From: Salinicola acroporae | GTDB lineage: Bacteria > Pseudomonadota > Gammaproteobacteria > Pseudomonadales > Halomonadaceae | Assembly (NCBI RefSeq): GCF_003206615.1 | Contig: NZ_PZJW01000012.1 | Location: 124,001 to 188,000 of the forward strand | Length of the DNA stretch: 64,000 bases | Direction: 5' to 3' | Shown here: one piece after another, positions 6,359 through 35,500 of the stretch | Numbering within the stretch: position 1 is the stretch's first letter | Layout of the letters: the number at the start of each line of letters is the position of its first letter | Position numbers and translations under genes: made by a program | The notes under the pieces: model-generated | Told to the model about the DNA's origin: nothing | What the model saw: the letters and a program-made list of their open reading frames with translations, nothing else | The model's database searches: none

Positions 6359-7357
6359 ATGTCACGACTTGCCGATATTCCTCTCTCGGTGCTGGATCTG
6401 GCGCCGATCACGCGCGACGGCACCGCAGCGGAGACGTTCCGCCGCAGCGTCGATCTGGCCCAGCAGACCGAGCGTCTGGGCTACAACCGCTACTGGCTGG
6501 CCGAGCACCACAACATCGATGGTATCGCCAGCGCGGCGACCAGCGTCCTGATCGGTCATATCGCCGGGGCGACCTCGACCATGCGCATCGGCAGCGGCGG
6601 GATCATGCTGCCCAACCATCCACCGCTGGCGATCGCCGAGCAGTTCGGCACGCTGGCGACGCTCTACCCGGAGCGTATCGATCTCGGCCTCGGCCGTGCC
6701 CCGGGCTCCGACGGCATCACCATGCAGGCCATGCGTCGCGACCCGCGCGCCGGGGTCAATGATTTCCCCGACCGCCTCGACGAACTCCGCCGCTACCTGG
6801 GCGATACCGTACCCGGCCAGCGGGTGCGGGCGATTCCCGGTGAAGGCACCCATGTGCCGATCTGGCTGCTCGGTTCCAGTGGCTACAGTGCCCAGCTCGC
6901 GGCCAGGCTCGGGCTGCCGTTCGCCTTCGCCGGTCAGTTCGCCCCCGGCTACATGATCGAGGCCCTGCATCTCTATCGCGAAGGCTTCCAGCCGGGGGTG
7001 CTCGACAAGCCCCACGCGATGCTCGGGATCCCGCTGATCGCCGCCGATACCGACGAGCGCGCCCGCTTTCTCGCCACCACCCAACAGCAGAAGTTCCTCA
7101 ACCTGATTCGCGGCAAGAGCACGCGGACCCAGCCACCGGTGGCGGATCTCGACTGGTCGCGCCAGGAGCAGGCCATGGTCGCCCAGAATCTCGGGGCCGC
7201 TGTCGTCGGTGGACCCGAGAGCGTGCGCCAGCAACTGGACGAGCTGCTGGCCCGTACCGGGGCCGACGAGATCATGGTCAACACCGACTGTTACGATCAC
7301 GCCGAGCGGGTGAAGTCCTACGAGATTCTGGCGGAGGTTCAGCGGGCGTCACGATAG
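6359..7357 (+). CDS. LLM class flavin-dependent oxidoreductase (YhbW-like)
   Basis: 332 aa bacterial-luciferase-like monooxygenase expected to use reduced FMN. Family features include the start [16 protein letters not shown] near residue 43, [15 protein letters not shown] near 80, DLGLGRAPG near 110 and the late [13 protein letters not shown] region. This arrangement is typical of the single-subunit group that includes E. coli YhbW, whose substrate is not known. An AAGGGA site precedes the ATG. It probably forms its own transcript, ended by the hairpin at 7445. Confidence 0.9.
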
Positions 7358-7444: not shown

Positions 7445-7487
7445 CGAGGGGACTTAACGCTCGTCCCCTCGCCGCTCCCCTTCTTTT
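7445..7487 (+). terminator. Intrinsic terminator of the LLM gene
   Basis: A 9-bp stem CGAGGGGAC / GTCCCCTCG with a 9-base loop, followed by a pyrimidine-rich stretch ending in CTTCTTTT. It lies 90 bases after the stop codon. Confidence 0.65.
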
Positions 7488-7548
7488 AGCGCCGCAGGAT
7501 CGCGAAACCCTGGCCCGTCGGAGACCTTCGCCGGGGTCGGCGCACAAA

Positions 7549-7594
7549 GGACATCCATGTCCTAATGCGCTTCTTGCGACATCCCTGTCGCAAG
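7549..7594. repeat. Pair of palindromes, REP-like intergenic element
   Basis: Two hairpins in a row, GGACAT-CC-ATGTCC (7549-7562) and CTTGCGACA-TCCC-TGTCGCAAG (7573-7594), sit in the 376-base gap between convergent genes (7358-7733). The two share a GACATCC-TGTC core. The surrounding sequence has no supportable gene. Whether the element is dispersed in the genome cannot be seen here. Confidence 0.45.
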
Positions 7595-7671
7595 ACCCCG
7601 CTACGGCACCTCAGGCCAGCGCGCTCCTGAAGGCGCCACGGTGGTCGGTTCCAATGAGTCCAATGGTGTCA

Positions 7672-22966: not shown

Positions 22967-23013
22967 ACCCCGGCGAGCCTGAACCAGGACTTCGAACCGC
23001 CCGCCAGACGTTG

Positions 23014-23041
23014 TTGGTGCAGTGGGCGGGGACGTTGCACC
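23014..23041 (+). promoter_or_regulatory. Candidate NtrC-type upstream activating site of nasA
   Basis: TTGGTGCA (23014-23021), 14 bases, then TGCACC (23036-23041). Both are NtrC half-site sequences. The element is 115-142 bases before the predicted nasA start point and has the same spacing as the copy at 29811. Binding by NtrC is inferred. Confidence 0.5.
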
Positions 23042-23129
23042 GGCCTGAGGCTCCATCCGCCCGCGCTCCCATCGTCGCGCATCACCGGATCGGGCTTATG
23101 TTGTTGAATCTCGTCGCTAACGGCGATTC

Positions 23130-23145
23130 TGGTATGCCTTCTGCT
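23130..23145 (+). promoter_or_regulatory. Sigma-54 (-24/-12) promoter of nasA
   Basis: TGGTATGCCTTCTGCT has the invariant GG and GC separated by exactly 10 bases. Transcription would start near 23156, giving a 180-base leader before the nasA start codon. Confidence 0.65.
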
Positions 23146-23221
23146 TGACTCGATGAGTTCGGACCAAAGGCGGCCCGACCGGGACGTCGTCAGACGACTC
23201 CCGACCCATCATCGCGGCGCC

Positions 23222-23262
23222 CGGCCAACGACGGCCGAGGCCCGCAACGGACAACGGCGTCC
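23222..23262 (+). promoter_or_regulatory. ANTAR dual-hexaloop element in nasA leader
   Basis: Stem P1 CGGCC-AACGAC-GGCCG (23222-23237) and stem P2 GGAC-AACGGC-GTCC (23249-23262). Both loops have A at position 1 and G at position 4, the signature bound by ANTAR proteins. P2 covers the left arm of the terminator starting at 23253, so the two structures exclude each other. Confidence 0.8.
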
Positions 23263-23307
23263 ATCGCTTCTCATGCCCGGCATGACGAGCGGTGGACGCC
23301 GTTTTTT
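23253..23307 (+). terminator. Leader terminator (attenuator) of nasA
   Basis: A long hairpin: outer stem AACGGCGTCCA / TGGACGCCGTT, then CGCT/AGCG, then TCATGC-CCG-GCATGA, followed by six T. It ends 30 bases before the nasA start codon, so it must be read through for expression. Confidence 0.88.
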
Positions 23308-23337
23308 CATGCCCGTCACCATCGGAGAGAGATCTTC

Positions 23338-24720
23338 ATGGACATCCGCCACAAAGCCAACAAGATCCGCCTGTTCAGTTTCTCCACGCCGCAGATGCGC
23401 GCCTTCCATCTATCCTGGTTCGCCTTCCATGTCTGCTTCTTCGGCTGGTTCGGCATCGCCCCGCTGATGGCCGTCGTCCGCGACGACCTGGGTCTGACCA
23501 AGAGCCAGATCGGCAACACGATCATCGCCTCGGTCGCCATCACTATCGTCGTCCGGCTGGCGATCGGGCTGCTCTGCGACCGGCTCGGTCCGCGCAAGAC
23601 CTACACCTGGCTGCTCTGCCTGGGATCGCTACCGGTCATGTCGATCGGCCTGGCCGACAGCTTCGAAAGCTTCCTGCTGGCTCGACTGGCGATCAGCGCG
23701 ATCGGCGCGTCCTTCGTCATCACCCAGTACCACTCCACCGTGATGTTCGCGCCCAACGTGGTCGGCACGGCGAATGCCACCACCGCCGGCTGGGGCAACC
23801 TCGGTGGCGGCACCACACAGATCCTGATGCCGCTGGTGTTTTCCGGCGTGCTGATGCTGGGTGTCAGCGAGACCCTGGGCTGGCGGCTGGCGATGGTGGT
23901 GCCCGGCATCGTGCTGTTGCTGACCGGCCTGGCCTATTACCGTTTCACCCAGGACGCGCCGGACGGAAACTTCAGCGACTTGCGGGCGCGTGGCGAACTG
24001 CCGCCGGCCACCCGGGAACACGGCGCCCTGCAGAGCTTTACCGCCGCGGCCCGGGACATCCGCGTCTGGGCGCTGTTCGTGGTGTATGCCGCCTGCTTCG
24101 GCGTGGAACTCACGATCAACAACATCGCCGCGATCTACTTCTTCGACACCTTCTCGCTGGACCTGGCCACGGCGGGGCTGATCGCCGGGCTGTTCGGATT
24201 GATGAATCTGTTCGCGCGCACTCTCGGCGGCGTGTTCTCGGACCTGTTCGCGCGCAACGGCGGGCTCAAGGGGCGCGTGCGCTGGCTGTTCATCGCGCTG
24301 CTATGCGAGGGCGTGGCGCTGCTGGGCTTCGCCCAGATGCAGACCCTGGCCGTGGCGATCGGCATCATGCTGATGTTCAGCCTGTTCGTGCAGATGGCCG
24401 AGGGCGCCACCTTCGGGGTCGTGCCGTTCATCAACAAGCAGGCGCTGGGCGCGGTGGCGGGGATCGTCGGCGCCGGCGGCAATGCCGGAGCCGTGGCCGC
24501 CGGCTTCCTGTTTCGCTCGGAGTCGCTCTCCTACCAACAGGGCCTTTTCTATCTGGGCCTGGCAGTCATCGCCGCCTCGCTATTCGCGCTCGCGGTCAGG
24601 TTCTCCACGGAGACAGAAGCGACCGAAGATGCGGCCTATCGCCAGGCCGACGGCGAGCGCCATGTCGCTCAGAATGCCGAGCGGGAGGCTGCTCCCGGCT
24701 GGGCGCGCCCCTTGCGATGA
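23338..24720 (+). CDS. nasA: Nitrate/nitrite MFS transporter NasA/NarK
   Basis: 460 aa major-facilitator carrier with 12 hydrophobic segments. The nitrate-porter signatures GWGNLGGG (near residue 142) and GAGGNAGAV (near 380) are both present, together with the conserved arginine segments RLAIG and FARTLGG. The C-terminal 40 residues are a hydrophilic cytosolic tail. It brings nitrate into the cell for assimilation. A GGAGAGAG site precedes the ATG. Expression is controlled by a sigma-54 promoter and a leader terminator. Confidence 0.93.
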   Translation: MDIRHKANKIRLFSFSTPQMRAFHLSWFAFHVCFFGWFGIAPLMAVVRDDLGLTKSQIGNTIIASVAITIVVRLAIGLLCDRLGPRKTYTWLLCLGSLPVMSIGLADSFESFLLARLAISAIGASFVITQYHSTVMFAPNVVGTANATTAGWGNLGGGTTQILMPLVFSGVLMLGVSETLGWRLAMVVPGIVLLLTGLAYYRFTQDAPDGNFSDLRARGELPPATREHGALQSFTAAARDIRVWALFVVYAACFGVELTINNIAAIYFFDTFSLDLATAGLIAGLFGLMNLFARTLGGVFSDLFARNGGLKGRVRWLFIALLCEGVALLGFAQMQTLAVAIGIMLMFSLFVQMAEGATFGVVPFINKQALGAVAGIVGAGGNAGAVAAGFLFRSESLSYQQGLFYLGLAVIAASLFALAVRFSTETEATEDAAYRQADGERHVAQNAEREAAPGWARPLR

Positions 24721-24728
24721 CGCCTTGT

Positions 24729-24758
24729 CATCACGCCCCTCTCCATCACGCCCCTCTT
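24729..24758. repeat. 15-bp direct repeat downstream of nasA
   Basis: CATCACGCCCCTCTC and a second copy differing at its last base, period 15, followed by a degenerate CATCGC. It lies between the nasA stop and its terminator. Confidence 0.6.
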
Positions 24759-24782
24759 CCATCGCGAGTCCATGCGATCTTC

Positions 24783-24810
24783 GCCGCTGCCCTAGGGTAG
24801 CGGCTTTTTT
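24783..24810 (+). terminator. Intrinsic terminator of nasA
   Basis: GCCGCTGCCC / GGGTAGCGGC stem followed by six T, 62 bases after the nasA stop and abutting the stop of the convergent GNAT gene. Confidence 0.9.
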
Positions 24811-25280
24811 CAGAGGTCCCGGTGCATCAACGTGACGCGCTCGCCACGATAGATCACGGATTCGAAGGGCACCCAGCCCAGCCGCGCGTAGAGCGCCACC
24901 TGGTCGGGTGTGTAGAGATAAAGTCGCCGACAACCCGCTTCCCGGGCCTCGGTCTCCACCGCCGCCGCCAATGCCGAGGCGATACCGCGGCCGCGCCAAG
25001 CCGGCAGGACGAAAACGGAGGCGAGCCAGGGCCCCATGGCGGCCCGAGTGCTCATGTCGCTGAGTGTCAGGCTCGCAGTAGCTATCGGCTCGCCATCGTT
25101 CATGGCCACGAATACCGAAGGCACGCCTCTGGCACCGCAATCCTCGCGGGTGTCGTCCCGCCATTCGTCGAAGGTCGTGTGCGGGTGAAGCCCGCCCCAG
25201 GCGTCGAAGGTCCAACGCGATACCGTTTCGATGCCGAGCGTGTCAGCGCGGTCCAACCGAGAGTTCTTCCAGTCCATCAT
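24810..25280 (-). CDS. GNAT family N-acetyltransferase
   Basis: 156 aa acetyl-CoA-dependent acyltransferase. The coenzyme A loop is VFVLPAWRGRGIASALAAAV near residues 90-110, followed by LYLYTPDQVALYARLGW, the usual motif B. Either the GTG at 25286 or the ATG at 25280 may start it; the ATG is used. Substrate unknown. It is a single gene between nasA and the PhnA-like gene. Confidence 0.85.
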   Translation of the reverse strand: MMDWKNSRLDRADTLGIETVSRWTFDAWGGLHPHTTFDEWRDDTREDCGARGVPSVFVAMNDGEPIATASLTLSDMSTRAAMGPWLASVFVLPAWRGRGIASALAAAVETEAREAGCRRLYLYTPDQVALYARLGWVPFESVIYRGERVTLMHRDL

Positions 25281-25358
25281 GGCCACTCGTGATGCTGAAT
25301 CCCAAGCCGATCGACGGCTAGAGGAGCCCGATGGACCCCTCGCCGGAGCCGGCGTCGA

Positions 25359-25406
25359 TTCAATGTCAGAGCTTCTTGATGTCAGACCTTGTCGATGTCA
25401 GACCTT
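25359..25406. repeat. 16-bp tandem repeat, three copies, over the 3' end of the PhnA-like gene
   Basis: Three adjacent 16-bp units sharing the core (A/G)ATGTCAGA(C/G)CTT at 25359, 25375 and 25391. The third unit includes the stop codon of the PhnA-like gene (25398-25400), so the other copies are non-coding. Confidence 0.7.
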
Positions 25407-25739
25407 CTTGACGAACTCGGACTTGAGTTTCATCGCTCCGATACCGTCGATCCTGCAGTCGATATCGTGATCGCCATCGACCAGACGAATGTTCTTGACC
25501 TTGGTGCCCACTTTCACCACCTGTGAAGAGCCCTTGATCTTGAGGTCCTTGATCACGGTGATGCTGTCGCCATCGACCAGCGGTGTGCCATGGGCATCGG
25601 TAACGCGCCGGGAGTCGGCATCACTGCTCGTGGCCTCGGAGAGGGTCCACTCGTGGGCGCATTCGGGGCAGACGAGAACGCTGGCGTCTTCGTAGCTGAA
25701 TTCGGAACCGCACTGCGGGCAGGGAGGCAACTGGCTCAT
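25398..25739 (-). CDS. PhnA-like zinc ribbon protein (YjdM family)
   Basis: 113 aa. A four-cysteine zinc ribbon [21 protein letters not shown] fills residues 6-26, and the C-terminal PhnA/SH3-like domain reads [44 protein letters not shown]. Named PhnA in older work, but not needed for phosphonate breakdown; function unknown. The ATG at 25739 begins the conserved part; a second ATG 24 bases upstream results from a local duplication. Confidence 0.9.
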
Positions 25740-25770
25740 GGTCGTTCCTGATGGCTGGCTCATGGTCGTT
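25731..25770. repeat. 16-bp direct repeat duplicating the PhnA-like start region
   Basis: CTGGCTCATGGTCGTT occurs at 25731-25746 and 25755-25770 (period 24). Each copy contains an ATG with the same downstream MSQ codons on the minus strand, so the start site is duplicated in frame. Confidence 0.7.
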
Positions 25771-25828
25771 TCCGATCGAGAGGAAGGCGCGGAGTTTACG
25801 CGCCGGCGGCCACCCTGCCCAGTGCCAT

Positions 25829-26713
25829 TCAGCGATCTGTGGCCATCGCGTCGCGTCCGACCCAGGCGCTGGCCATTGTCACCACGCTACCCACCACGAT
25901 CAGGCACGGCGACGGCAAGGGGCTGGCGGCGAGTCGCGCCGGCATGTCCGCCAGCGTACCGACCAGGGCTTGCTGCTGCGACAGCGAGGCGTTGGCGGTC
26001 AGCATGATCGGCCAGTCGGAGGGCAGCCCGGCGCCGATCAATTCTTCGCAGATGGTTTCGACATGACTCAGGCCCATGTAGAACACCAGCGTCTCGTCGC
26101 GCCGTGTCAGGCCACGCCAGTCAAGGGCCTGATCCTCACGGCAGGCCTGGGCGGTAATGAAGCGAACCTGCTGGGCGTGGGCGCGATCCGTCAGCGGCAG
26201 CCCCATGGCCGCTACCGCACCGGACGCGGCGGTGATCCCGGGGACGATCTCTGCCGGGATCCCGGCTTCGGCGAGCGCGGCAAGCTCTTCGCCCATGCGG
26301 CCGAAGATGCCCGGATCGCCGCCCTTCAGCCTCACCACGCGTTTGCCGGCCTGGGCCAGGCGCACCATCAGGCGGCCGATCTCCGCCTGGGGCACGCTGT
26401 GGTGGCCGCGCGCCTTGCCGACGTAGTAGCGCTCGCAACCCCGTGGGAGCAGCGCCAGGATATCCTCACCCACCAGCCGATCGTAGACGATCGCCTCGGC
26501 GCTCTCGATCAGACCCGCGGCACGCAGCGTCAGCAGATCCGCCGCCCCCGGGCCGGCCCCGACCAGATAGACTTGGCCGCGCTCGGCCGACGACGTGCCT
26601 ATCGTCGAACGCCGGCCTTCGTTCGCCAGGCGCTCCCGGCCGATCTGCCAGACGCGAGCCATCCATTGACCCACCTTGATCGATACCGGGCGTGACGGGT
26701 TATACGCTGACAT
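25829..26713 (-). CDS. cobA: Uroporphyrinogen-III C-methyltransferase
   Basis: 294 aa SAM-dependent methyltransferase making precorrin-2, the precursor of siroheme. The glycine-rich start [20 protein letters not shown] is near residue 46, [18 protein letters not shown] near 125 and [21 protein letters not shown] near 155; these are SUMT hallmarks. It lacks the CysG dehydrogenase/chelatase part, and a 40-residue extension precedes the core. It overlaps the end of nasC by 14 bases and is cotranscribed with it, supplying siroheme for NirB. Confidence 0.95.
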
Positions 26714-29495
26714 GGACGCTCTCCTCATCGAGCAGGGATTTCAATTCCGGTAGGCAGGAGCCGCATTGGGTACCGCAGGCGAGCCTGGCCCCCAGGGCTT
26801 CGACACTGGCATCGCCGGCACGGATCGCCTCGACGATCGAGCGCTGGCCGACCTGGTGGCAGCTACAGACGATCGCCCCCTGATCGCGGGCACCGCTGGC
26901 AAAACCGGCCAGGATGCGTCGGCGCGTGGCCGGGTCCAGCGACGCATTCGGCCCAGGGGCGAAACACGCATCCAGCCAGTGCAGGGCTGGCAATGCCGCC
27001 GGCGGCCCCACCATCAGCCACCAGCGCAGTCGACCCGCCTCGAGACCGCTGGCGCGCAGCCGCCCCCGGGCGCTGTCACGGCTCCACTGCGTCGCCGGCA
27101 GGGGCAGCCGGCTCTCGACCCAGGCCAGCCAGTCGTGATTTTCCAAGGTCGGCTCGCCGGCAAGCTGCCAGCGCAGGCTGTGAGCCATCGGAATGCGCGT
27201 CCAGTACGCGCAGTCGTCGCGTGGGTCCACCGTCCCGGCGAGATCGCCGGCGACGATCAATGTCGCCTCCCAGGCCGTCTCGAGCGCGTTCAGACTCACC
27301 GCGCCCTGTTTCGATTCGGGCTGACCGGAGATCGGATCGGTGATCGGCGCGATCAGTCCGCCGATCTTGGCTTGGCCGCTGAAGGCGTCGTTCCAGTGCA
27401 TTGGCGCGAACAGCTCGCCACGTCGCTGGCCCTTGGCCAGCCGTGCTCGTGCCCGATACCGCCCCTCGACACCAACGAGCTCGACCAGTTGCTGGTCGGC
27501 GATCCCATGGCTTTCGGCATCGACGGGATGCATCTCGACGAACGGCTCCTGGCGATGATTCATCAGACGAGACGCGCGCCCGGTACGGGTCATGGTGTGC
27601 CACTGGTCGCGGATTCGTCCGGTGTTGAGTCGCAACGGCCGCCGAACGCTGATCTCCTGCTGCGGCCCCCGCGGGCGCACCGGCAGCAGTCTCGCCAGGC
27701 CATCCGGCGTGGCGAATCGGCCATCCTCGAACAGCCGTGCGGTACCCCGAGGGGCGCCACCGTTGACTGGCCACTGGATCGGCGCCAGCGCCTCGTAGCC
27801 GGTGCGGTCGAGCCCGGCCAGGCCGGATATGTCGAAAATTCGCCCGCCCTCGGCCTGCTCGTCGGGCGAGTTCTCGAATCCGGAAAGCCGTGCATGCTCC
27901 GTGAAGATATCGGCGGGATGCGCATAATCGAAGGCTTCGCCAAAGCCCAGCCCGGCCGCGACCCGACTCATGATCCACCAGTCGTGGCGCGCTTCACCGG
28001 GCGGCGGAAGCAACCCCCGCTGGCGCGAGATCCGGCGCTCCGAGTTGGTCACGGTGCCGTCCTTCTCCGCCCAGCTGCTGGCCGGCAGCACGATATCCGC
28101 CACCTCCAGCACTTCGGCGTTGGCCATGCAGTCGGAGACGATGACCAGCGGGCAGGCCGCCAGGATGCGCTTGATGCGGTTGGCGTCGGGCATGCTGACC
28201 ACCGGATTGGTCGCCATGATCCAGATCGCGCGAATTTCGTCACGCTCGATGGCGTCGAACAGCTCCACGGCCTTGTGCCCCGGTTCGTTCGGCAACGTCG
28301 GCACGAGCGAGGCCGTCTGCCAGAAACGGGTGACCCGATCGATGGCACCCGGGGTGTGATAGTCCATGTGCGCGGCCAACTGGTTGGCCAACCCGCCGAC
28401 TTCACGACCGCCCATTGCATTGGGCTGGCCGGTGATCGAGAACGGCCCGGCCCCCGGCAGCCCGATCTTGCCCCCGGCCAGGTGGCAGTTGATGATCGCC
28501 TGGCACTTGTCGGTGCCACTGCTCGACTGGTTGATGCCCTGGGAGTAGAGCGTCACCACGTGCAGATGGGTCGCGAACCAGTAGAAGAAGGTCTCCAACC
28601 GTTCGACGTCGATATCGCAGTCGCGGGCGATGCCCGCGAGGCGGGTGTCGTCCTCGCGGGCGGCGTTCAGTGCCGCCTCGAAGCCTTGGGTGTGGCGCTC
28701 CAGATAACGGCGATCGACCCGACCTTTCTCCTCCATCCACGCCAGCAGGCCATTGAACAGCCGCGCATCGCTACCCGGCTCGAGCCCCAGGTAGAGATCG
28801 GCAATCTCGCAGCTGTCGGTCACGCGCGGATCGATCACCACCACCCGCATCAATGGATTACGCGCCTTGGCCGCCTTCAGGCGCTGGTAGAGCACCGGAT
28901 GGTTCCAGGCCAGGTTGGAACCTACCAATACCACCAGCTCGGCGCACTCAAGGTCCTCGTAGCAGCACGGCACGGCATCGGCTCCGAAGGCGCGCTTGTA
29001 GGCCGCCACTGCCGAGGCCATGCAGAGTCGTGAATTGGTATCCACGTGGGGCGTGCCGAGAAAGCCCTTGAAAAGCTTGTTGGCGACGTAATAGTCCTCG
29101 GTCAGCAGCTGGCCGGAGAGATACGCCGCTACCGCGTCCCGGCCGTGCTCGCGCTGCGTCGACGCCAACCGGGTGACCACGGCGTCCAGCGCCGTCGTCC
29201 AGTCCACCGGTTTGCCGTCGACACGGGGGTGTCGCAAGCGCCCTTCCTCGCCCAGGGTCTCGTGCAAGGCGCTGCCCTTGACGCAGAGCCGGCCGAAATT
29301 GGCCGGATGCGCTCCATCGCCCTCGACGCCGCTCACCCGCTCGCCGTCGTGCTCGACGATGACCCCACACCCGACGCCGCAATAAGGACAGGTGGTGGTG
29401 TCCTTGAAAGGCGGACAGGTGGTGGTGTCCGTAATCGCCGGACCGGTAGCGGTGTCTTCGGTAATCGAACGGCCCTTGGCCTGCCGATCTGACAT
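26700..29495 (-). CDS. nasC: Assimilatory nitrate reductase catalytic subunit
   Basis: 931 aa cytosolic molybdenum enzyme reducing nitrate to nitrite. A [4Fe-4S] cluster is bound by Cys36-x2-Cys39-x3-Cys43-x27-Cys71. The molybdopterin oxidoreductase core follows (NSRLCMASAVAAYKRAFGAD and GQPNAMGGREVGGLANQLAAH are typical), then the dinucleotide-binding domain near residues 640-780. The C-terminus carries a BFD-like [2Fe-2S] domain (CSCHQVG ... CGTQCGSCLPEL). The ATG at 29495 has GGAGG 6 bases upstream. The first 30 residues contain a short repeat with a duplicated DTTTCP. Expression depends on a sigma-54 promoter and an attenuated leader. Confidence 0.96.
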   Translation of the reverse strand: MSDRQAKGRSITEDTATGPAITDTTTCPPFKDTTTCPYCGVGCGVIVEHDGERVSGVEGDGAHPANFGRLCVKGSALHETLGEEGRLRHPRVDGKPVDWTTALDAVVTRLASTQREHGRDAVAAYLSGQLLTEDYYVANKLFKGFLGTPHVDTNSRLCMASAVAAYKRAFGADAVPCCYEDLECAELVVLVGSNLAWNHPVLYQRLKAAKARNPLMRVVVIDPRVTDSCEIADLYLGLEPGSDARLFNGLLAWMEEKGRVDRRYLERHTQGFEAALNAAREDDTRLAGIARDCDIDVERLETFFYWFATHLHVVTLYSQGINQSSSGTDKCQAIINCHLAGGKIGLPGAGPFSITGQPNAMGGREVGGLANQLAAHMDYHTPGAIDRVTRFWQTASLVPTLPNEPGHKAVELFDAIERDEIRAIWIMATNPVVSMPDANRIKRILAACPLVIVSDCMANAEVLEVADIVLPASSWAEKDGTVTNSERRISRQRGLLPPPGEARHDWWIMSRVAAGLGFGEAFDYAHPADIFTEHARLSGFENSPDEQAEGGRIFDISGLAGLDRTGYEALAPIQWPVNGGAPRGTARLFEDGRFATPDGLARLLPVRPRGPQQEISVRRPLRLNTGRIRDQWHTMTRTGRASRLMNHRQEPFVEMHPVDAESHGIADQQLVELVGVEGRYRARARLAKGQRRGELFAPMHWNDAFSGQAKIGGLIAPITDPISGQPESKQGAVSLNALETAWEATLIVAGDLAGTVDPRDDCAYWTRIPMAHSLRWQLAGEPTLENHDWLAWVESRLPLPATQWSRDSARGRLRASGLEAGRLRWWLMVGPPAALPALHWLDACFAPGPNASLDPATRRRILAGFASGARDQGAIVCSCHQVGQRSIVEAIRAGDASVEALGARLACGTQCGSCLPELKSLLDEESVHVSV
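29386..29458. repeat. 27-bp in-frame tandem repeat in nasC amino terminus
   Basis: An 18-base sequence GGACAGGTGGTGGTGTCC is perfect at 29386-29403 and 29413-29430, with a degenerate copy from 29440, all with period 27 (nine codons). On the protein it duplicates DTTTCP just before the first iron-sulfur cysteine. Confidence 0.75.
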
Positions 29496-29504
29496 TGCGA
29501 GCCT

Positions 29505-29550
29505 CCAAAAACGCAAAAGGCCTGACATCACTCAAGGTGACGTCAGGCCT
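29505..29550 (-). terminator. Leader terminator (attenuator) of nasC
   Basis: On the minus strand a 14-bp stem (AGGCCTGAC / GTCAGGCCT outer part, TCAC/GTGA inner part, loop CTTGA) is followed by TTTTGCGTTTTT, ending 10 bases before the nasC start codon and overlapping the approach to its ribosome-binding site. Confidence 0.85.
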
Positions 29551-29642
29551 CGTTGCCTGCTGGCGGCGAAACAGATGACTGTCCGCCCGCGCGTTATCGA
29601 TCGTCTCATCGCCCTGGCTGGATCGATGCCGCCGTTGGCATC
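29544..29642 (-). promoter_or_regulatory. ANTAR dual-hexaloop element in nasC leader
   Basis: On the minus strand stem P1 GATGCC-AACGGC-GGCATC (29642-29625) and stem P2 CAGGC-AACGAG-GCCTG (29559-29544). Both hexaloops have A1 and G4. P2 contains part of the terminator's left arm, so P2 and terminator are alternatives. The linker is 65 bases. Confidence 0.78.
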
Positions 29643-29699
29643 GACCGTGTCCATCGGGACGAGGACTCTCTGATCAACTTCGTTTGATGACCTGAAACA

Positions 29700-29715
29700 G
29701 GCAAGAACGGGTCCA
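29700..29715 (-). promoter_or_regulatory. Sigma-54 (-24/-12) promoter of nasC-cobA
   Basis: On the minus strand TGGACCCGTTCTTGCC has GG and GC exactly 10 bases apart and a consensus TTGC at -12. The start point would be near 29689, giving a leader of about 195 bases. Confidence 0.72.
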
Positions 29716-29810
29716 ACATTGCCAGAAAAGCCGAAGAACAAGGATTTGCCGCATTCGACCCATGGCGTTACCGGCCTCGCCCCACGCCTCGACGGGCGCT
29801 ACGGCCCGCA

Positions 29811-29849
29811 TTGGTGCAGCCATCGCCGCCTGCGCACCGATGTTGCGCA
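29811..29849. promoter_or_regulatory. Shared NtrC-type upstream activating region
   Basis: TTGGTGCA (29811-29818), 14 bases, CGCACCG, and an overlapping dyad TGCGCA-N7-TGCGCA (29831-29849). It lies midway between the divergent sigma-54 promoters, about 122-160 bases from each start point. The surrounding non-coding stretch 29496-30164 holds only leaders, promoters and this site. Confidence 0.55.
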
Positions 29850-29936
29850 AACCCGACTTCTCCGGCGCCCGACCTCGATCTTTCCGGCGCCCGAATAGTT
29901 CCCCATCTCGCTGAAATGGCGATATCGGGATCGTGC

Positions 29937-29952
29937 TGGCACGCTTTTCGCT
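29937..29952 (+). promoter_or_regulatory. Sigma-54 (-24/-12) promoter of the nasB-like/nirBD operon
   Basis: TGGCACGCTTTTCGCT: perfect -24 half TGGCACG, GG and GC separated by 10 bases, with one deviation in the -12 half (TCGC for TTGC). Start point near 29963, leader about 200 bases. Confidence 0.7.
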
Positions 29953-29968
29953 TCCTACGACATGACGA

Positions 29969-30075
29969 CGACCAACGACGGTCGCGTCGACGCTAAACGA
30001 TGCCCGCAATGCCGCCGGCATCCATCGCATGACAGCAAGACAGACACTGTTCGAATTTCAGGCAAAGGCGCCTGA
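29969..30075 (+). promoter_or_regulatory. ANTAR dual-hexaloop element in nasB-like/nirBD leader
   Basis: Stem P1 CGACC-AACGAC-GGTCG (29969-29984) and stem P2 TCAGGC-AAAGGC-GCCTGA (30058-30075). Both loops have A1 and G4. P2 overlaps the left arm of the terminator that begins at 30064. The linker is 73 bases. Confidence 0.8.
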
Positions 30076-30114
30076 TGCCGCGAAGCCCCGCTTCGTGTCA
30101 TCAGGCGCCTTTTT
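30064..30114 (+). terminator. Leader terminator (attenuator) of the nasB-like/nirBD operon
   Basis: A 14-bp stem AAAGGCGCCTGATG / CATCAGGCGCCTTT with an inner CGAAG-CTTCG helix, followed by a T-run to 30114. It ends 50 bases before the first start codon. Confidence 0.9.
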
Positions 30115-30164
30115 CGTTGCTGGCCACTATCCGAAGAGATGACCATGACGTCGGGAGATATCTC

Positions 30165-31484
30165 ATGTCCCAGAACGATTCCTACAACGGCTTTCCGAAC
30201 GCTTCCCGGAACCCGCCCTCGGATAACCGCGGCGCACCGGCGCACCTGGTGATCGTCGGCAACGGCATGGCCGGCCATCGCCTGCTGAGCGCACTGCTGA
30301 AACGACCGGACCGCCCCGACCGCATCACGGTCATTGGCGAGGAAGCCTCGCCGGCCTATAACCGCATCCTGCTGTCACCCTGGCTGGCCGGCGAGATCGA
30401 GCGCAACGCGCTCGATCTTCCCCTCGAGCACGTCGCGACAGCGGGTGTGACATGGCGGCTGGGCGAACGTGTGGTCACCATCGACCGGCGACGACGCCGG
30501 ATCCACACCGACCGGGGCGAACCGGTGGCTTACGACCGCCTGGTACTGGCGACCGGCTCGCGTCCTGCCCTGCCGGACGTTCCCGGCATTCGGCTGGGCA
30601 ATGTCGGCGGATTCCGCGATCTCGTCGATACCGCCTGGCTCACGTCGCGACCTGTGGGTAGCCGTGCGGTGGTCATCGGCGGCGGGCTGCTGGGACTGGA
30701 GGCGGCGGAAGGCCTGCGCAAGCGAGGGCTGGCCGTCACCGTGCTCCAGCGCAGCGAGCGCTTGATGAACCGGCAACTGGATGAGACGGCGGCGAGCTGG
30801 CTGCGTACCGAACTGGAGAGCCGCGGCTTGACCGTCGAGACCCACGCCCGGCTGGCCGCCTGCGAGGGCGATACCGATGGCAACGTGGCCGCGGTGCGGT
30901 TGGAGGATGGCCGCCGGCTGCCTGCCGACTGTGTGGTGGTGGCCGCCGGCATCACGCCCCGTACGGCACTGGCCCGACAGTCCGGACTGAGCACCGCCTG
31001 CGGCATCGTCGTCGACGCGACGCTGACGACCAGCGACCCCGCCATTCACGCCCTCGGCGAGTGCTGCGAGTTCGAGGGACGCACCTACGGCCTGGTCGAC
31101 CCCATCTGGCAACAGGTGGATGTGCTCGCCGCTCGGCTCTGCGGCCAGCGCAGCGCCCCCTATCGCGAGATCCCGTGTGCAACCCGGCTCAAGATCGCGG
31201 ATATCTCGATCTTTGCCTTCGGCCCGGTCGAGATTCCGCCGGGGCACGAGACGCTGACCTACGCCGATGCCGAGAACGGCGACTACCGTCGGCTGTTGCT
31301 GCACGACGATCGTCTCGTCGGCGCGGTGCTCTACGGCGATACCGCCGCCGGCCCCGGCTATTTCCATCACGCCCGTGAAGCCCACGACCTGAGCGCCTGC
31401 CGTGACGTACTACTGTTCGGCGCCGATGACGCCACACGACTTCTGGCCGATAACGCCACCCGGAAACTGGAGGAAGCGGCATGA
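30165..31484 (+). CDS. nasB: FAD-dependent NAD(P)H oxidoreductase (NasB-like nitrate reductase electron-transfer subunit)
   Basis: 439 aa pyridine nucleotide-disulfide oxidoreductase fold. The FAD motif HLVIVGNGMAGHRLL is at residues 27-41, the ATGSRP segment near 125 and the second Rossmann motif VVIGGGLLGLEAAEGL near 168. It resembles the first third of NirB but has no iron-sulfur domain, unlike Klebsiella NasB. It likely passes electrons from NAD(P)H to the nitrate reductase NasC, which carries its own [2Fe-2S] domain (inference). The ATG at 30165 has GGGAG upstream; it overlaps nirB by 4 bases. Confidence 0.82.
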   Translation: MSQNDSYNGFPNASRNPPSDNRGAPAHLVIVGNGMAGHRLLSALLKRPDRPDRITVIGEEASPAYNRILLSPWLAGEIERNALDLPLEHVATAGVTWRLGERVVTIDRRRRRIHTDRGEPVAYDRLVLATGSRPALPDVPGIRLGNVGGFRDLVDTAWLTSRPVGSRAVVIGGGLLGLEAAEGLRKRGLAVTVLQRSERLMNRQLDETAASWLRTELESRGLTVETHARLAACEGDTDGNVAAVRLEDGRRLPADCVVVAAGITPRTALARQSGLSTACGIVVDATLTTSDPAIHALGECCEFEGRTYGLVDPIWQQVDVLAARLCGQRSAPYREIPCATRLKIADISIFAFGPVEIPPGHETLTYADAENGDYRRLLLHDDRLVGAVLYGDTAAGPGYFHHAREAHDLSACRDVLLFGADDATRLLADNATRKLEEAA

Positions 31485-34093
31485 CACACGCCCCTGGTAC
31501 GACACCCATGACGACACAAGCCCCGGTTGCCACGACCGACAAGCCCCGCCTGCTGGTGATCGGCAACGGTATGGTCGGCCACTACTGCCTGGAGCAACTG
31601 GTGGAGCGCGGAGCCCACCATCGCTATGCGATCAGCGTCTTCGGCGAGGAGCGTCATCGCGCCTACGACCGCGTGCACCTTTCCGACTACTTCAGCGGCA
31701 GCGACGCCGGTGCGCTGGCGCTGGGCGAGGCGGATTTCTGTGCCCGACACGGTATCGACCTGCGCCTGGGCGAAGCGGTCATCTCGATCGACCGCAGCGC
31801 CCGCAACGTCGTGACCGAGCGCGGCCGCTACGCTTTCGATCAGTTGATCCTGGCAACCGGCTCCTACCCCTTCGTGCCGCCGATCCCCGCGTCCGAGGCC
31901 GACGACAGCGGCCATGCCCGTCTGGTCTACCGAACGTTGGACGATCTCGACCGCATCCGCGAGGCGGCGTTGTCACTGGAAGATCGGGAAATCCGCCGCG
32001 GCGTCGTGGTCGGTGGGGGCCTGCTGGGCCTCGAGGCCGCCAACGCGCTCAAGTCGCTGGGGCTCGAGGCCCACGTGGTCGAGTTCGCCCCCCGCCTGAT
32101 GCCGGTGCAGCTGGACGCCGAGGGCGGTGAGGCCCTCAAGCGTCAGATCGAAGCGCTGGGCGTGCAGGTGCATCTTGATCGTGCGACGAGCGAGATTGTC
32201 GCTGGCGACACCCACCGTTACCGCATGAACTTCGCCGACGGCGAGTGGCTGGAGACCGACATGATCGTGTTCTCGGCCGGCATTCGACCGCAGGATCGGC
32301 TGGCCCGCGACTGTGACCTGGAGATCGGCGAGCGTGGCGGCATCGTGATCGACGACACCTGCCACACCTCCGACCCGGACATCTTCGCCATCGGCGAATG
32401 CGCGCTGTGGAACGGCCAGGTCTTCGGCCTCGTCGCCCCCGGCTACACCATGGCGCGCACGGCAGCCGGCTGCCTGGTCGATAGCGGCGAGCCGTTCAGC
32501 GGCGCCGACATGTCGACCAAGCTCAAGCTGCTTGGCGTCGACGTGGGCTCCATTGGCGATGCACATGGGGCGACCGAAGGCGCCGTGAGCTACCGCTTCA
32601 TCGACGAAGCCGGCCACGGCTATCGCCGGCTGGTGGTCTCCGGCGACGGCAAGCGCGCCCTGGGCGCCGTGCTGGTGGGGGACAACAGCGACTACGACAC
32701 GCTCCTGCAATACGTGCAGAACAGCATCGCGCTGCCCGCCGATCCGGCCAGCCTGATCCTGCCCCAGGGCGAGGGCGCGCCACTGCTGGGTGCGGATGCC
32801 CTGCCGGAAAGCGCCACGATCTGCTCGTGTCACAACGTCTCCAAGGGGACAGTCTGTCAGTCCGTGGAGAACGGCTGCACAGACCTTGGCGCACTCAAGG
32901 CCGACACCAAGGCCAGCACCGGTTGCGGCGGCTGCACGGCACTGCTCAAGCAGGTCTTCGAGCATGAGCTGGAAAGTCGCGGGGTCGAAGTCGACCGCAG
33001 CCTTTGCGAGCATTTCGCCTATACCCGCCAGGAGCTCTACGACCTCATCCGTGTCGAGGGCATTCAAAGTTTCGAGGCGCTCCATGCCCGTCACGGTAAG
33101 GGGCGGCTGGGCTGCGATATCTGCAAGCCCGCAGTGGCGTCGATCCTGGCCTCGTGCTGGAACGCACCGATTACCAGCCCCTCGCTGGTGCCGCTGCAGG
33201 ACACCAACGATACCTTCATGGCTAATATGCAGAAAAACGGCACTTACTCGGTGGTGCCGCGCATTCCCGGCGGCGAGATCACCCCGGACAAGCTGATCGC
33301 CATCGGCACCGTGGCCAAGAAGTACGATCTTTACACCAAGATCACAGGCGGCCAGCGCATCGATCTGTTCGGCGCGCAGCTTCACGAACTGCCGGAGATC
33401 TGGAGCGAGCTGATCGAAGCCGGCTTCGAGACCGGCCACGCCTACGGCAAATCCACGCGCACGGTGAAATCCTGTGTCGGCAACACTTGGTGTCGCTACG
33501 GCGTGCAGGACAGCGTGGCGATGGCACTCACCATCGAGAATCGCTACAAGGGCCTGCGCTCGCCGCACAAGCTCAAGTTCGCCGTTTCCGGCTGCACGCG
33601 GGAGTGCGCCGAGGCGCAGAGCAAGGATGTCGGCGTGATCGCCACCGAACACGGCTGGAACCTTTACGTCTGCGGCAATGGCGGCATGCGCCCACGCCAC
33701 GCGGAGCTCTTTGCCACCGATCTCGATGACGAGACGCTTTTGAAGACCATCGACCGCTTTTTGATGTTCTACATCCGCACCGCCGACCGCCTGCAGCGCA
33801 CCTCGGTATGGCGAGAAAACCTCGACGGCGGCCTCGACTACCTCAAGCAGGTGGTCTTGGAAGACAGCCTGGGTCTTGGCGCAGAGCTCGAAGCACAGAT
33901 GCAGCACGTGGTCGATCAATACGAGTGCGAGTGGGCCGGTGCGCTCAAGGACCCGGAGAAGCTCAAGCGCTTCCGCACCTTCGTCAACGACCAGCGCAGC
34001 GATCCAGACATCATTGCGGTCAGCGAGCGTGATCAACCGCGCCCGGCCAGGCCCGAAGAGATCGCCGCCCTGGCTACGGAGATTACCTCATGA
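31481..34093 (+). CDS. nirB: Nitrite reductase [NAD(P)H] large subunit
   Basis: 870 aa siroheme enzyme reducing nitrite to ammonium. Order of domains: FAD/NAD-binding reductase (LLVIGNGMVGHYCL near residue 25), BFD-like [2Fe-2S] region (CSCHNVSKGTVCQ ... CGGCTALL near 450-490), nitrite/sulfite-reductase ferredoxin-like half domain, and the siroheme/[4Fe-4S] site with Cys665, Cys671, Cys705 and Cys709, the same spacing as in E. coli NirB. GGAGGAAG precedes the ATG at 31481, which overlaps the previous stop. Siroheme comes from the CobA product of the divergent operon. Confidence 0.97.
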   Translation: MTHAPGTTPMTTQAPVATTDKPRLLVIGNGMVGHYCLEQLVERGAHHRYAISVFGEERHRAYDRVHLSDYFSGSDAGALALGEADFCARHGIDLRLGEAVISIDRSARNVVTERGRYAFDQLILATGSYPFVPPIPASEADDSGHARLVYRTLDDLDRIREAALSLEDREIRRGVVVGGGLLGLEAANALKSLGLEAHVVEFAPRLMPVQLDAEGGEALKRQIEALGVQVHLDRATSEIVAGDTHRYRMNFADGEWLETDMIVFSAGIRPQDRLARDCDLEIGERGGIVIDDTCHTSDPDIFAIGECALWNGQVFGLVAPGYTMARTAAGCLVDSGEPFSGADMSTKLKLLGVDVGSIGDAHGATEGAVSYRFIDEAGHGYRRLVVSGDGKRALGAVLVGDNSDYDTLLQYVQNSIALPADPASLILPQGEGAPLLGADALPESATICSCHNVSKGTVCQSVENGCTDLGALKADTKASTGCGGCTALLKQVFEHELESRGVEVDRSLCEHFAYTRQELYDLIRVEGIQSFEALHARHGKGRLGCDICKPAVASILASCWNAPITSPSLVPLQDTNDTFMANMQKNGTYSVVPRIPGGEITPDKLIAIGTVAKKYDLYTKITGGQRIDLFGAQLHELPEIWSELIEAGFETGHAYGKSTRTVKSCVGNTWCRYGVQDSVAMALTIENRYKGLRSPHKLKFAVSGCTRECAEAQSKDVGVIATEHGWNLYVCGNGGMRPRHAELFATDLDDETLLKTIDRFLMFYIRTADRLQRTSVWRENLDGGLDYLKQVVLEDSLGLGAELEAQMQHVVDQYECEWAGALKDPEKLKRFRTFVNDQRSDPDIIAVSERDQPRPARPEEIAALATEITS

Positions 34094-34581
34094 GCACTGC
34101 CATTCTCGAAGCCTCTGAACTCGCCGTGGCGGGGAGAAAGCGTGTCCGCCTCTGCTCGCGGGAGGATCTGGTCGCTGACTCTGGCGTCGTCGCCTGGCAC
34201 CAGGGCCATCAGATCGCGATTTTCTATCTACCCGGTCGACCCGAAGCGACCGACGAGCCGTCTAATCGACCCGAAGCCGTCGGTGAGCTGTCTACCCGAC
34301 CCGAAGCCGTCGGTGAGCTTTCTACCCGACCCGAAGCCGTCGGTGAGCTTTACGCCGTGGACAACCACGATCCGTTTTCCGGCGCCAACGTGATCGGCCG
34401 CGGCATCGTCGGCGATTTGAACGGCGAGCTGGTGGTCGCCTCCCCGATCTACAAGCAGCATTTTCGACTGCGAGATGGTTTGTGCCTGGAAGATCCCGAC
34501 CAGCGCCTGCGCTGCTGGCCGGTTGCCTTCGAGGGCGACGACGTGGTGCTGCTGCCAGAGGAGACCGTCGGCCGGACCTGA
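34090..34581 (+). CDS. nirD: Nitrite reductase small subunit with internal repeat insertion
   Basis: 163 aa NirD-type Rieske-like partner of NirB; typical length is about 105-120. The family parts are the N-terminal half to AIFYLPG (residue 49) and then LYAVDNHDPFSGANVIGRGIVGD from residue 87 and KQHFRLRDGLCLED. Between them sits an extra 37-residue stretch made of a ten-residue unit, RPEAVGELST, repeated nearly four times. The insertion falls where NirD proteins have a short surface turn, so the protein may still fold. Overlaps nirB by 4 bases. Confidence 0.92.
   Translation: MSTAILEASELAVAGRKRVRLCSREDLVADSGVVAWHQGHQIAIFYLPGRPEATDEPSNRPEAVGELSTRPEAVGELSTRPEAVGELYAVDNHDPFSGANVIGRGIVGDLNGELVVASPIYKQHFRLRDGLCLEDPDQRLRCWPVAFEGDDVVLLPEETVGRT
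34237..34356. repeat. 30-bp in-frame tandem repeat inside nirD
   Basis: Four adjacent 30-bp units start at 34237, 34267, 34297 and 34327, each beginning CGACCCGAAG. Units 2-4 are nearly identical; unit 1 is diverged and unit 4 grades into the normal NirD sequence. Length is a multiple of three, so copy-number change would keep the frame. Confidence 0.9.
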
Positions 34582-34687: not shown

Positions 34688-35500
34688 ATGTCCTATCTAC
34701 TCCCTGCCGAATTCACCACCAAGATGGTCGATGCCGGTGAATCCAAGATATTCATGTCCACCCGTGACACGATAATTCGCGCCTACATGGCCGGGGCGAT
34801 CCTGGCGCTGGCGGCGGCGTTTGCCATCACCATCACCGTGCAGACCGGCCAGCCACTGGTGGGCGCGATCCTGTTCCCGGTTGGGTTCGTGATGCTCTAT
34901 CTGATGGGCTTCGACCTGCTGACCGGAGTGTTCATGCTGACGCCACTGGCCCTGCTGGACCGACGTCAAGGCGTGACGCTCAATCGCGTGCTGCGCAACT
35001 GGGGCTGGGTGTTTCTTGGCAATCTGGGCGGGGCGCTGACCGTTGCCTTGATGATGGCGTTCATCTTCACCTACGGCTTCTCCATTGGCCCGGGCGTCGT
35101 GGGGGATAAGATCGCCGGGATCGGCGAATCGCGCACGCTGGGCTACGCCGAGTACGGCGTCGCCGGCTGGGCGACCATCTTCATCCGCGGCATGCTCTGC
35201 AACTGGATGGTCTCGATGGGCGTGGTCGGAGCGATGGTCTCGACCTCCGTCAGCGGCAAGGTGATCGCGATGTGGATGCCGATCATGCTGTTCTTCTACA
35301 TGGGCTTCGAGCACTCGATCGTCAACATGTTCCTGTTCCCCTCCGCGATGATCATGGGCGGCGGCTTCTCGGTCATGGACTACCTATGGTGGAACGAGAT
35401 ACCGACCGTGCTAGGCAACCTGGCCGGTGGGCTCGCCTTCACCGGACTCACGCTTTACGCCACCCACGTCAAGACCGGACCCAAGCGAGACCTGGCCTGA
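34688..35500 (+). CDS. nirC: Formate/nitrite channel family protein (NirC-like)
   Basis: 270 aa FNT-family pentameric channel with six membrane segments. The conserved first-loop segment LVGAILFPVGFVMLYLMGFDLLTGVF, the N-terminal half GNLGGAL motif and the MGFEHSIVNMFLFP segment after helix 5 are family hallmarks. In a nirBD setting it most likely moves nitrite, either importing it or venting excess. GAGGAAAGC precedes the ATG, 106 bases after nirD. Confidence 0.92.
   Translation: MSYLLPAEFTTKMVDAGESKIFMSTRDTIIRAYMAGAILALAAAFAITITVQTGQPLVGAILFPVGFVMLYLMGFDLLTGVFMLTPLALLDRRQGVTLNRVLRNWGWVFLGNLGGALTVALMMAFIFTYGFSIGPGVVGDKIAGIGESRTLGYAEYGVAGWATIFIRGMLCNWMVSMGVVGAMVSTSVSGKVIAMWMPIMLFFYMGFEHSIVNMFLFPSAMIMGGGFSVMDYLWWNEIPTVLGNLAGGLAFTGLTLYATHVKTGPKRDLA

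Follow-up and report, generated by a model that had tools for sequence, protein, structure and literature searches.

How far apart can the two hairpins of an ANTAR antitermination target lie and still work as one target? The published rule for such targets has the two hairpins tightly spaced. The question is raised by a nitrate-assimilation locus of Salinicola acroporae, contained in a stretch of 64,000 nucleotides (nt) of contig NZ_PZJW01000012.1 that we call the window, where a gene for the regulator NasR adjoins three leaders, each with a sigma-54 promoter, an upstream hairpin (P1), a downstream hairpin (P2) and an intrinsic terminator. These leaders exist, are conserved and belong for the most part to a known kind, namely NasR antitermination with several leaders; what is unexpected is the uncoupled spacing of the hairpins, contrary to the spacing tests published for a related system. 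Across 17 genomes both hairpins are kept while the distance between them changes more than five-fold, P1 following the promoter and P2 the terminator.

The leaders head a narK unit (leader 1), a nasC-cobA unit (leader 2) and a nasB-nirBD unit (leader 3). An earlier note on this DNA had described three sigma-54 leaders with hexaloops carrying A at position 1 and G at position 4 (A1/G4) and a terminator overlapping P2, and all three were confirmed both by reading and by script (Table 1). Each has the two-hairpin form of an ANTAR target, with A1/G4 hexaloops, a C-G closing pair and a P2 that is mutually exclusive with the terminator, whose left arm begins 1-3 nt into the P2 loop. Compared with shuffled sequences, the leaders fold with z-scores of -7.5, -5.6 and -5.5. 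The weakest -24/-12 score belongs to the nasC leader (4 of the 8 scored positions; the other two have 5 and 7), which an initial, stricter terminator rule also failed to pick up. The regulator, whose gene the note had placed next to the first leader, is a NasR-family protein with NIT followed by ANTAR, both Pfam domains above cut-off; it aligns with PDB entry 4akk ('nitrate regulatory protein') across both domains (5e-45), and the closest named NasR that we found is that of S. lusitanus CR50 (94% identity). It is the single ANTAR protein found in the whole genome (4.37 Mb, 32 contigs), and its gene stands beside three leaders of ANTAR-target form.

The leaders recur in 11 further Salinicola genomes and in five genomes of two other genera (handles such as L016 are ours). 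In these 17 genomes 49 leaders were examined, of which 48 were readable and 45 are tabulated (15 narK, 17 nasB, 13 nasC); left out were L020_L1, which is unreadable, L023_L2 and L154_L2, which have no P1, and L096_L2, whose P1 candidate has the loop AGCGCC, while L155 was omitted as the same genome as L017. The narK leader of L020 had been considered as hexaloop-less, a candidate that was dropped: the stretch is a run of N and is not counted as a loss. From the start of the -24 element to the P1 loop, narK leaders measure 35-38 nt (n=15, standard deviation 0.8) while 15 of 16 nasB leaders measure 34-38 nt (the sixteenth has 44, and a seventeenth lacks a scored site), so that 30 of the 31 pooled leaders fall within 34-38 nt. 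Between the P1 and P2 loops, the distance runs from 66 to 136 nt in narK leaders (n=15) and from 40 to 230 nt in nasB leaders (n=17).

Measured from stem to stem, the P1-P2 linkers of the three window leaders are 70, 61 and 73 nt long, and the range among 25 folded leaders is 23-207 nt, with two at 23 nt. The definition of an ANTAR target given in PMC3369931 asks for two stems of at least 3 bp with A1/G4 hexaloops and terms the linker variable; eut linkers are 5-12 nt, and induction fell drastically when one was changed to 3 or 14 nt (PMC3369931). In vitro, EutV antitermination was abolished by 20 additional nt of linker (PMC8934654), and a survey of actinobacterial targets allowed 2-25 nt (PMC8164766). 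No P1-P2 pair of the window falls within 5-12 or 2-25 nt; the only pair there that does so is P2 of leader 1 with a middle hairpin, Pm, at 11 nt. Given linkers of 70, 61 and 73 nt set against the EutV spacing tests, the statement of the earlier note that the pattern follows the known ANTAR mechanism holds in part only: the regulator and the anatomy of the leaders fit, whereas the P1-P2 distance lies beyond the linkers that EutV tolerates. Either P1 is dispensable, or else NasR reaches P2 by way of the folded linker. Folded with P1 and P2 held formed, 25 of the 45 leaders have linkers of 23-207 nt that the predicted backbone path crosses in 11-24 steps, so that the effective distance would barely increase with length. 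In nine folded narK leaders the linkers are more stable than their shuffles to a varying degree (z from -0.5 to -6.9).

P1 itself is conserved. The hairpin that the note had assigned as P1 of the narK leader (AACGAC, 23227) turned out to be Pm, and the conserved P1 lies at 23159-23178: a hairpin directly after the predicted start is present in all 15 readable narK leaders (the window and 14 others). Relatives carry compensatory changes there (e.g., TCGAGCC/GGCTCGA and GCGGGCC/GGCTCGC), and the window copy has one A.C stem mismatch, shared with L016 and L021. Independently of the rule by which P1 was sought, its stem covaries. In the 30 leaders left of the tabulated narK and nasB set of 32 once L020_L3 and L096_L3 are omitted (29 distinct rows), 94.3% of the pair cells are formed, double changes occur in 36 cells and covariation amounts to 0.548, as against 0.140 at most when slid; none of 500 shuffles reached any of these three values. 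An alignment of nasC P1 hairpins (A6) was mis-registered and is not used. Overall, an A1/G4, C-G-closed hairpin of P1 type occurs in 46 of the 48 readable leaders. P2 and the terminator are strongly conserved as well, and loss of the hexaloop stems from leaders that keep their terminators, named beforehand as the outcome that would speak against the note's reading, did not occur: relatives keep both together. That P1 is conserved despite long linkers argues for its doing something; that it acts jointly with P2 does not follow. The middle hexaloop is less regular. Six of the 15 narK leaders (window, L016, L017, L018, L019 and L021) have Pm, each time 26 nt ahead of the P2 loop, and some middle hexaloop is present in 13 of the 45 tabulated leaders (1.0 expected from shuffled linkers) and absent from 32; several of these 13 are closely related, and in our judgement perhaps four or five of them are independent.

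On the promoter side, motifs were read against what we take to be the NtrC and sigma-54 consensuses, and the form of an NtrC/sigma-54 promoter is present: a GG-N10-GC element with NtrC-type dyads upstream. Of the 45 leaders, 41 have a perfect GGTGC-N16-GCACC upstream, at 101-166 nt from a reference point that is itself 37 nt 5' of the P1 loop, and among 2000 random 240-nt windows of the sequence 17 reach the perfect score, own sites included. At exactly the offset that corresponds to TGCACC-N5-GGTGCA the flanks have weak outer half-sites, which score 2.93 and 3.07 of 6 (mean over 69 offsets 1.68, standard deviation 0.34). From its sequence, the element is read as paired NtrC-type sites 31 bp apart, with NtrC as the putative activator. 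A third GGTGC-N16-GCACC element of the window, at 1986-2011, lies outside the nas locus. Transcription presumably starts about 12 nt past the GC of the -12 element, and P1 is predicted to begin at about +2 to +4.

Taken together, we consider it probable that this is a two-gate nitrate-assimilation regulon with a split NasR target, whose binding, bridging, read-through and start sites we infer. At the first gate, to judge from the motifs, paired NtrC-type sites and sigma-54 would start the three units under nitrogen limitation. At the second, each transcript would stop at its leader terminator when nitrate is lacking; with nitrate, by analogy, a NasR dimer would bind the hexaloop hairpins and hold P2 folded, and the terminator would be prevented from forming. 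The second gate is drawn from the leader anatomy and from the known mechanism of NasR and EutV; NasR binds a two-hairpin RNA at about 1 uM and P2 alone at about 12 uM, and requires nitrate or nitrite (PMC7496416). P1 would lie close to the transcript's 5' end and could be the first to capture NasR, P2 would be part of the terminator, and the RNA between them would be free in length, local hairpins keeping P1 and P2 within bridging distance, with a third, middle hexaloop added in some leaders. The further-reaching proposal, to which we give an even chance, is that ANTAR antitermination can work independently of spacing, with P1 locked to the promoter, P2 to the terminator, a linker of 23 to more than 200 nt between them, and a NasR dimer that loads on the RNA at its 5' end and reaches P2 through the fold of the linker, the third hexaloop sometimes serving as a relay.

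Several observations weigh against this picture. The nasC leaders do not share the constant promoter-P1 distance (45-79 nt, n=12; P1-P2 63-134 nt, n=13), the -24/-12 site is unscored in two of the 45 leaders (L101_L2, L096_L3), and P1 was not found in two of 16 nasC leaders (L023, L154) in a search by the A1/G4, C-G rule; that rule also means that the presence of P1 in all 45 tabulated leaders is partly a product of selection. Two of the five P1 covariation measures are unexceptional (pairs with double change, reached by 188 of 500 shuffles, and further pair types, by 23 of 500), the rows are related, so that shuffles can be beaten without any structure, and the leaders are related by descent, which makes the counts non-independent. 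In the window's own narK leader, a mismatched P1 together with a Pm at canonical distance from P2 means that Pm and P2 may be the working pair. As to the linkers, mean paths in shuffled versions are 10.5-18.3 steps, and 20 of 25 leaders have an actual path longer than the shuffled mean, two of them by more than three standard deviations; proximity of P1 and P2 would hence be generic rather than a selected bridge, and a specially evolved compaction was rejected, as shuffled linkers are equally or more compact in the 25 of 45 leaders folded. Finally, a covariance model of promoter and P1, R1, was built from these leaders, and finding them with it is circular; across the whole genome it returned only leaders 1 and 3 (training members) and a fragment at the middle hexaloop of leader 1, and since it gave no match to leader 2, further NasR targets of that form could be missed.

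Which other explanations would account for the same leaders? One possible but rather doubtful reading is recruitment, in which P1 serves only to load NasR close to the promoter; P2 is then bound by that dimer or by another, the hairpins never being held together and their distance being irrelevant. With its predicted position at about +2 to +4, P1 would leave the polymerase first, and this early emergence, together with the widely variable distance to P2, would fit recruitment; a model for EutV mentions a recruitment hairpin (PMC8934654), yet in the same study a longer linker abolished EutV activity, and sequence cannot tell recruitment from bridging. Somewhat less likely still is that NasR acts on P2 and the terminator alone (with the middle hexaloop where there is one), P1 having another job such as stabilising the 5' end. 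Linkers beyond the range tolerated by EutV (PMC3369931, PMC8934654), the binding of a single hairpin by NasR at about 12 uM (PMC7496416) and the window narK leader with its mismatched P1 and canonically placed middle hexaloop would all fit such a reading. A 5' stabiliser, however, needs no C-G-closed A1/G4 hexaloop, and nearly all readable leaders have one, albeit in a rule-guided search; most leaders lack a middle hexaloop; and R1 also matches the promoter-P1 module at L124, L125 and L126, three nasT-like loci on which it was not trained, with P1-P2 loop distances of 22, 41 and 41 nt, so that intermediate spacings occur there as well.

The long linkers might instead encode leader peptides and the leaders act as ribosome-mediated attenuators. 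In favour of this, window leader 3 contains a frame of 37 codons that opens with an ATG close to where transcription is predicted to begin and closes with a stop codon on the 3' margin of P2; L021 and L153 (GTG) retain it. We rejected this reading as highly improbable: the frame is unconserved across the 17 nasB leaders, no frame of at least 12 codons exists in L023, L025 and L103, and elsewhere starts and stops differ. Chance hairpins in GC-rich DNA beside ordinary terminators have to be considered too, for high G+C makes hairpins common, and 25 dinucleotide-shuffled windows contained five places where an A1/G4 hexaloop overlaps a terminator. Only one of these five has an upstream hexaloop, whereas a scan of both strands of the real window found four such places, three of them with a further A1/G4 hexaloop within 160 nt upstream; these three are the leaders (the fourth, at 3900 on the minus strand, has none). 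As P1 also covaries, and as conservation among relatives refutes it, chance is to our minds practically out of the question.

If P1 works, the tight-spacing rule is too narrow and surveys based on it undercount ANTAR regulons; if a spacing-independent target is true, short-linker searches, including the narK model of Rfam, have missed a class of such regulons. The question of how one dimer reads two distant loops would then be directly testable, since one and the same leader comes in natural variants among relatives, short in L023 and L101 and long in L019.

The Rfam family of narK RNAs (RF03032) deserves a closer look. It matches leader 3 at 21.3 bits and leader 1 at 19.3, below the gathering score of 43.2, so that Rfam misses both, and gives no match to leader 2 at E up to 5. 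Its consensus contains a -24/-12 promoter, a CC[AACGGC]GG hairpin and a CGAC[AAAGAC]GUCG stretch; like the Salinicola leaders it thus has a promoter, a P1 hairpin and a P2 hexaloop, and unlike them a short P1-P2 distance. In a sample of 369 genomes from the class, 15 had matches, 13 of which carry an ANTAR protein; of the two that do not, L040 has no hexaloop and L044 one hexaloop and no promoter. All nine matches above gathering (L030, L031, L046-L052) have P1 and P2 hexaloops 22-27 nt apart, and loop distances in general are 22-33 nt, except for the weak matches L039 (41) and L044 (63, probably false). Among 36 loci read, P1 was seen in 33 and P2 in 30, and 18 passed the strict promoter rule, although scripted rules mis-assign or miss a few (L032, L038, L043). 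For six of the seven above-threshold matches among genomes of the taxonomic family the neighbourhood was read, and in all six the ANTAR protein is NasT-like (likeness to NasR being confined to the ANTAR part). On sequence grounds, RF03032 therefore reads as an ANTAR leader whose model includes promoter DNA, a link that would give a catalogued RNA a function and show that promoter DNA has been modelled as RNA. Nothing on it was found in the literature searched, which did not include the original narK RNA paper, and it may already be published. A 25-bit match on C29 was dropped, as it lies inside a long reading frame, which we take to be that of a ribose-phosphate pyrophosphokinase; the count over the taxonomic family with E up to 1 (158 of 201 genomes) contains noise of this sort and is unused. 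Separately, seven short-linker leaders (L049, L052, L053, L054, L057, L062, L063) have a GAAGAC P2 loop, with G for A at position 1.

How far does the system extend among relatives? Among 18 Salinicola genomes nasR is present in 12, nirB in the identical 12 and narK in 11 of these; the other six have no match to any of the three at the thresholds used, and two of the six (G001, G007) have a weaker ANTAR match in another protein. The narK exception is S. lusitanus (L015), which has no narK, nasC or nasB at the locus and keeps nasR and leader 3, the latter directly before nirB. In S. tamaricis (L025 10001-21234), nasR, narK, nasC, nasB and nirB each match in pieces, through decay or sequencing errors, and the hexaloops are still present. 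Beyond Salinicola, 38 NIT-type loci (L102, of the window's genus, and L104, with the ANTAR part only, stand outside this set) comprise five with long-linker leaders, 28 with a different narK leader and five others, of which L072, L081, L107 and L108 have P2 and terminator without promoter and P1, and L099 has neither. Another 20 loci (19 nasT-like; L127 with a weak NIT match) yielded P2 and terminator in six by strict scan, with P1 at most 29 nt away in four. An Azoarcus NasR locus (L024) has a hairpin pair with loops 20 nt apart; together with the 28 halomonad narK leaders of the other type, this indicates that having NasR does not in itself entail long linkers.

That other leader is an observation in its own right. 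A distinct and strikingly conserved sigma-54 leader precedes narK-nasR in other halomonad genomes with NasR (30 leaders at 29 loci, e.g., L069 at about 7237-7340, L075 and L026). It has the form GGCGUGGACCAG-(GCCC hairpin)-UACGAGUGCGUCGAACC, followed by CCUUC[AAYGRN]GAAGG, with an A1/G4 loop in 29 of 30; from 25 distinct rows, RNAalifold predicts a hairpin whose internal loop is conserved. The scan saw no overlapping terminator, one member (L075) has no Rfam match at E up to 10, and the exact core occurs in one of the 369 class genomes. It is possibly an undescribed RNA element.

The features of the locus are collected in Table 1. The minus-strand nasC-cobA unit is divergent from the nasB-nirB-nirD-FNT unit, and the nasC reading frame as listed begins at a GTG within the leader 2 terminator, an ATG at 29495 being the likelier start. 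Elsewhere in the window we observed 30-bp tandem repeats in the nirD-like gene (34236-34351), which encode repeated RPEAVGELST, a tandem repeat of 27 bp in the nitrate reductase gene, towards its 5' end (29386-29456), and a TwoAYGGAY RNA (RF01731) at 7482-7643 on the minus strand (43.4; gathering score 43).

Table 1. Leaders and genes of the nitrate-assimilation locus (window positions; hexaloops in brackets)
Feature	Position	Strand	Sequence or match
Leader 1 enhancer, interpreted as a pair of NtrC-type sites with centres 31 bp apart	23016..23041	+	GGTGC-N16-GCACC
Leader 1 (narK) sigma-54 -24/-12 element	23130..23146	+	TGGTATGCCTTCTGCTT
Leader 1 P1, loop at 23166, near predicted transcript 5' end	23159..23178	+	TCGGACC[AAAGGC]GGCCCGA
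Leader 1 middle hexaloop Pm, loop at 23227	23222..23237	+	CGGCC[AACGAC]GGCCG
Leader 1 P2, loop at 23253	23249..23262	+	GGAC[AACGGC]GTCC
Leader 1 intrinsic terminator, left arm within P2, T-tract	23253..23307	+	
Leader 2 terminator, left arm within P2	29504..29551	-	
Leader 2 P2, loop at 29554	29544..29559	-	CAGGC[AACGAG]GCCTG
Leader 2 P1, loop at 29636	29621..29646	-	GGTCGATGCC[AACGGC]GGCATCGATC
Leader 2 (nasC-cobA) sigma-54 -24/-12 element	29699..29715	-	TGGACCCGTTCTTGCCT
Palindromic enhancer, single copy common to divergent leaders 2 and 3	29813..29838	.	GGTGC-N16-GCACC
Leader 3 (nasB-nirBD) sigma-54 -24/-12 element	29937..29953	+	TGGCACGCTTTTCGCTT
Leader 3 P1, loop at 29974	29969..29984	+	CGACC[AACGAC]GGTCG
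Leader 3 middle hexaloop, one mismatch	29999..30022	+	GATGCCCGC[AATGCC]GCCGGCATC
Leader 3 P2, loop at 30064	30058..30075	+	TCAGGC[AAAGGC]GCCTGA
Leader 3 terminator, left arm within P2	30065..30114	+	
nasR, NIT nitrate/nitrite-sensing and ANTAR RNA-binding domains, 431 aa	21671..22966	+	Pfam NIT 2.4e-49, ANTAR 2e-20
narK/nasA-type nitrate/nitrite MFS (major facilitator superfamily) transporter	23338..24720	+	TIGR00886, 309 bits, slightly below cut-off 311.7
cobA/cysG-type uroporphyrinogen-III C-methyltransferase (siroheme), 3' of nasC	25829..26728	-	TIGR01469 above cut-off
nasC/nasA-type assimilatory nitrate reductase, C-terminal BFD [2Fe-2S] domain	26700..29531	-	Pfam/profile matches
FAD/NAD(P)H oxidoreductase resembling NirB N-terminal part; nasB-like electron transfer subunit	30165..31484	+	
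nirB, nitrite reductase large subunit	31481..34093	+	NF011565, TIGR02374 above cut-off
nirD-like Rieske subunit	34090..34581	+	TIGR02378 above cut-off
Formate/nitrite (FNT) transporter	34688..35500	+	Pfam PF01226

How, then, does the locus compare with known ANTAR systems? It resembles nasF and NasR of Klebsiella oxytoca in its NIT-ANTAR regulator, its A1/G4 two-hairpin target and the overlap of P2 with the terminator (PMC7496416, PMC3369931); Klebsiella, however, has one locus (PMC3369931), whereas Salinicola has three leaders, long and variable linkers and divergent units that share one enhancer. The earlier note had stressed this separate control of nirBD, nasC and the transporter, and the contrast of three leaders with a single Klebsiella locus stands, but three copies in one island are not new, given that multi-leader ANTAR regulons are already published (four eut leaders, ef0120 and others; PMC3369931). 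No report of long-linker ANTAR leaders was found in the literature searched. The NasS-NasT leaders of Paracoccus and Bradyrhizobium share ANTAR antitermination of nitrate genes, although NasS-NasT is a two-protein sensor and the Salinicola NasR a one-component one. In the EutV system of Enterococcus faecalis, one ANTAR protein likewise serves several A1/G4 dual-hairpin leaders, those of eut (PMC3369931), but with linkers of 5-12 nt, as against P1-P2 loop distances of 40-230 nt in the leaders described here.

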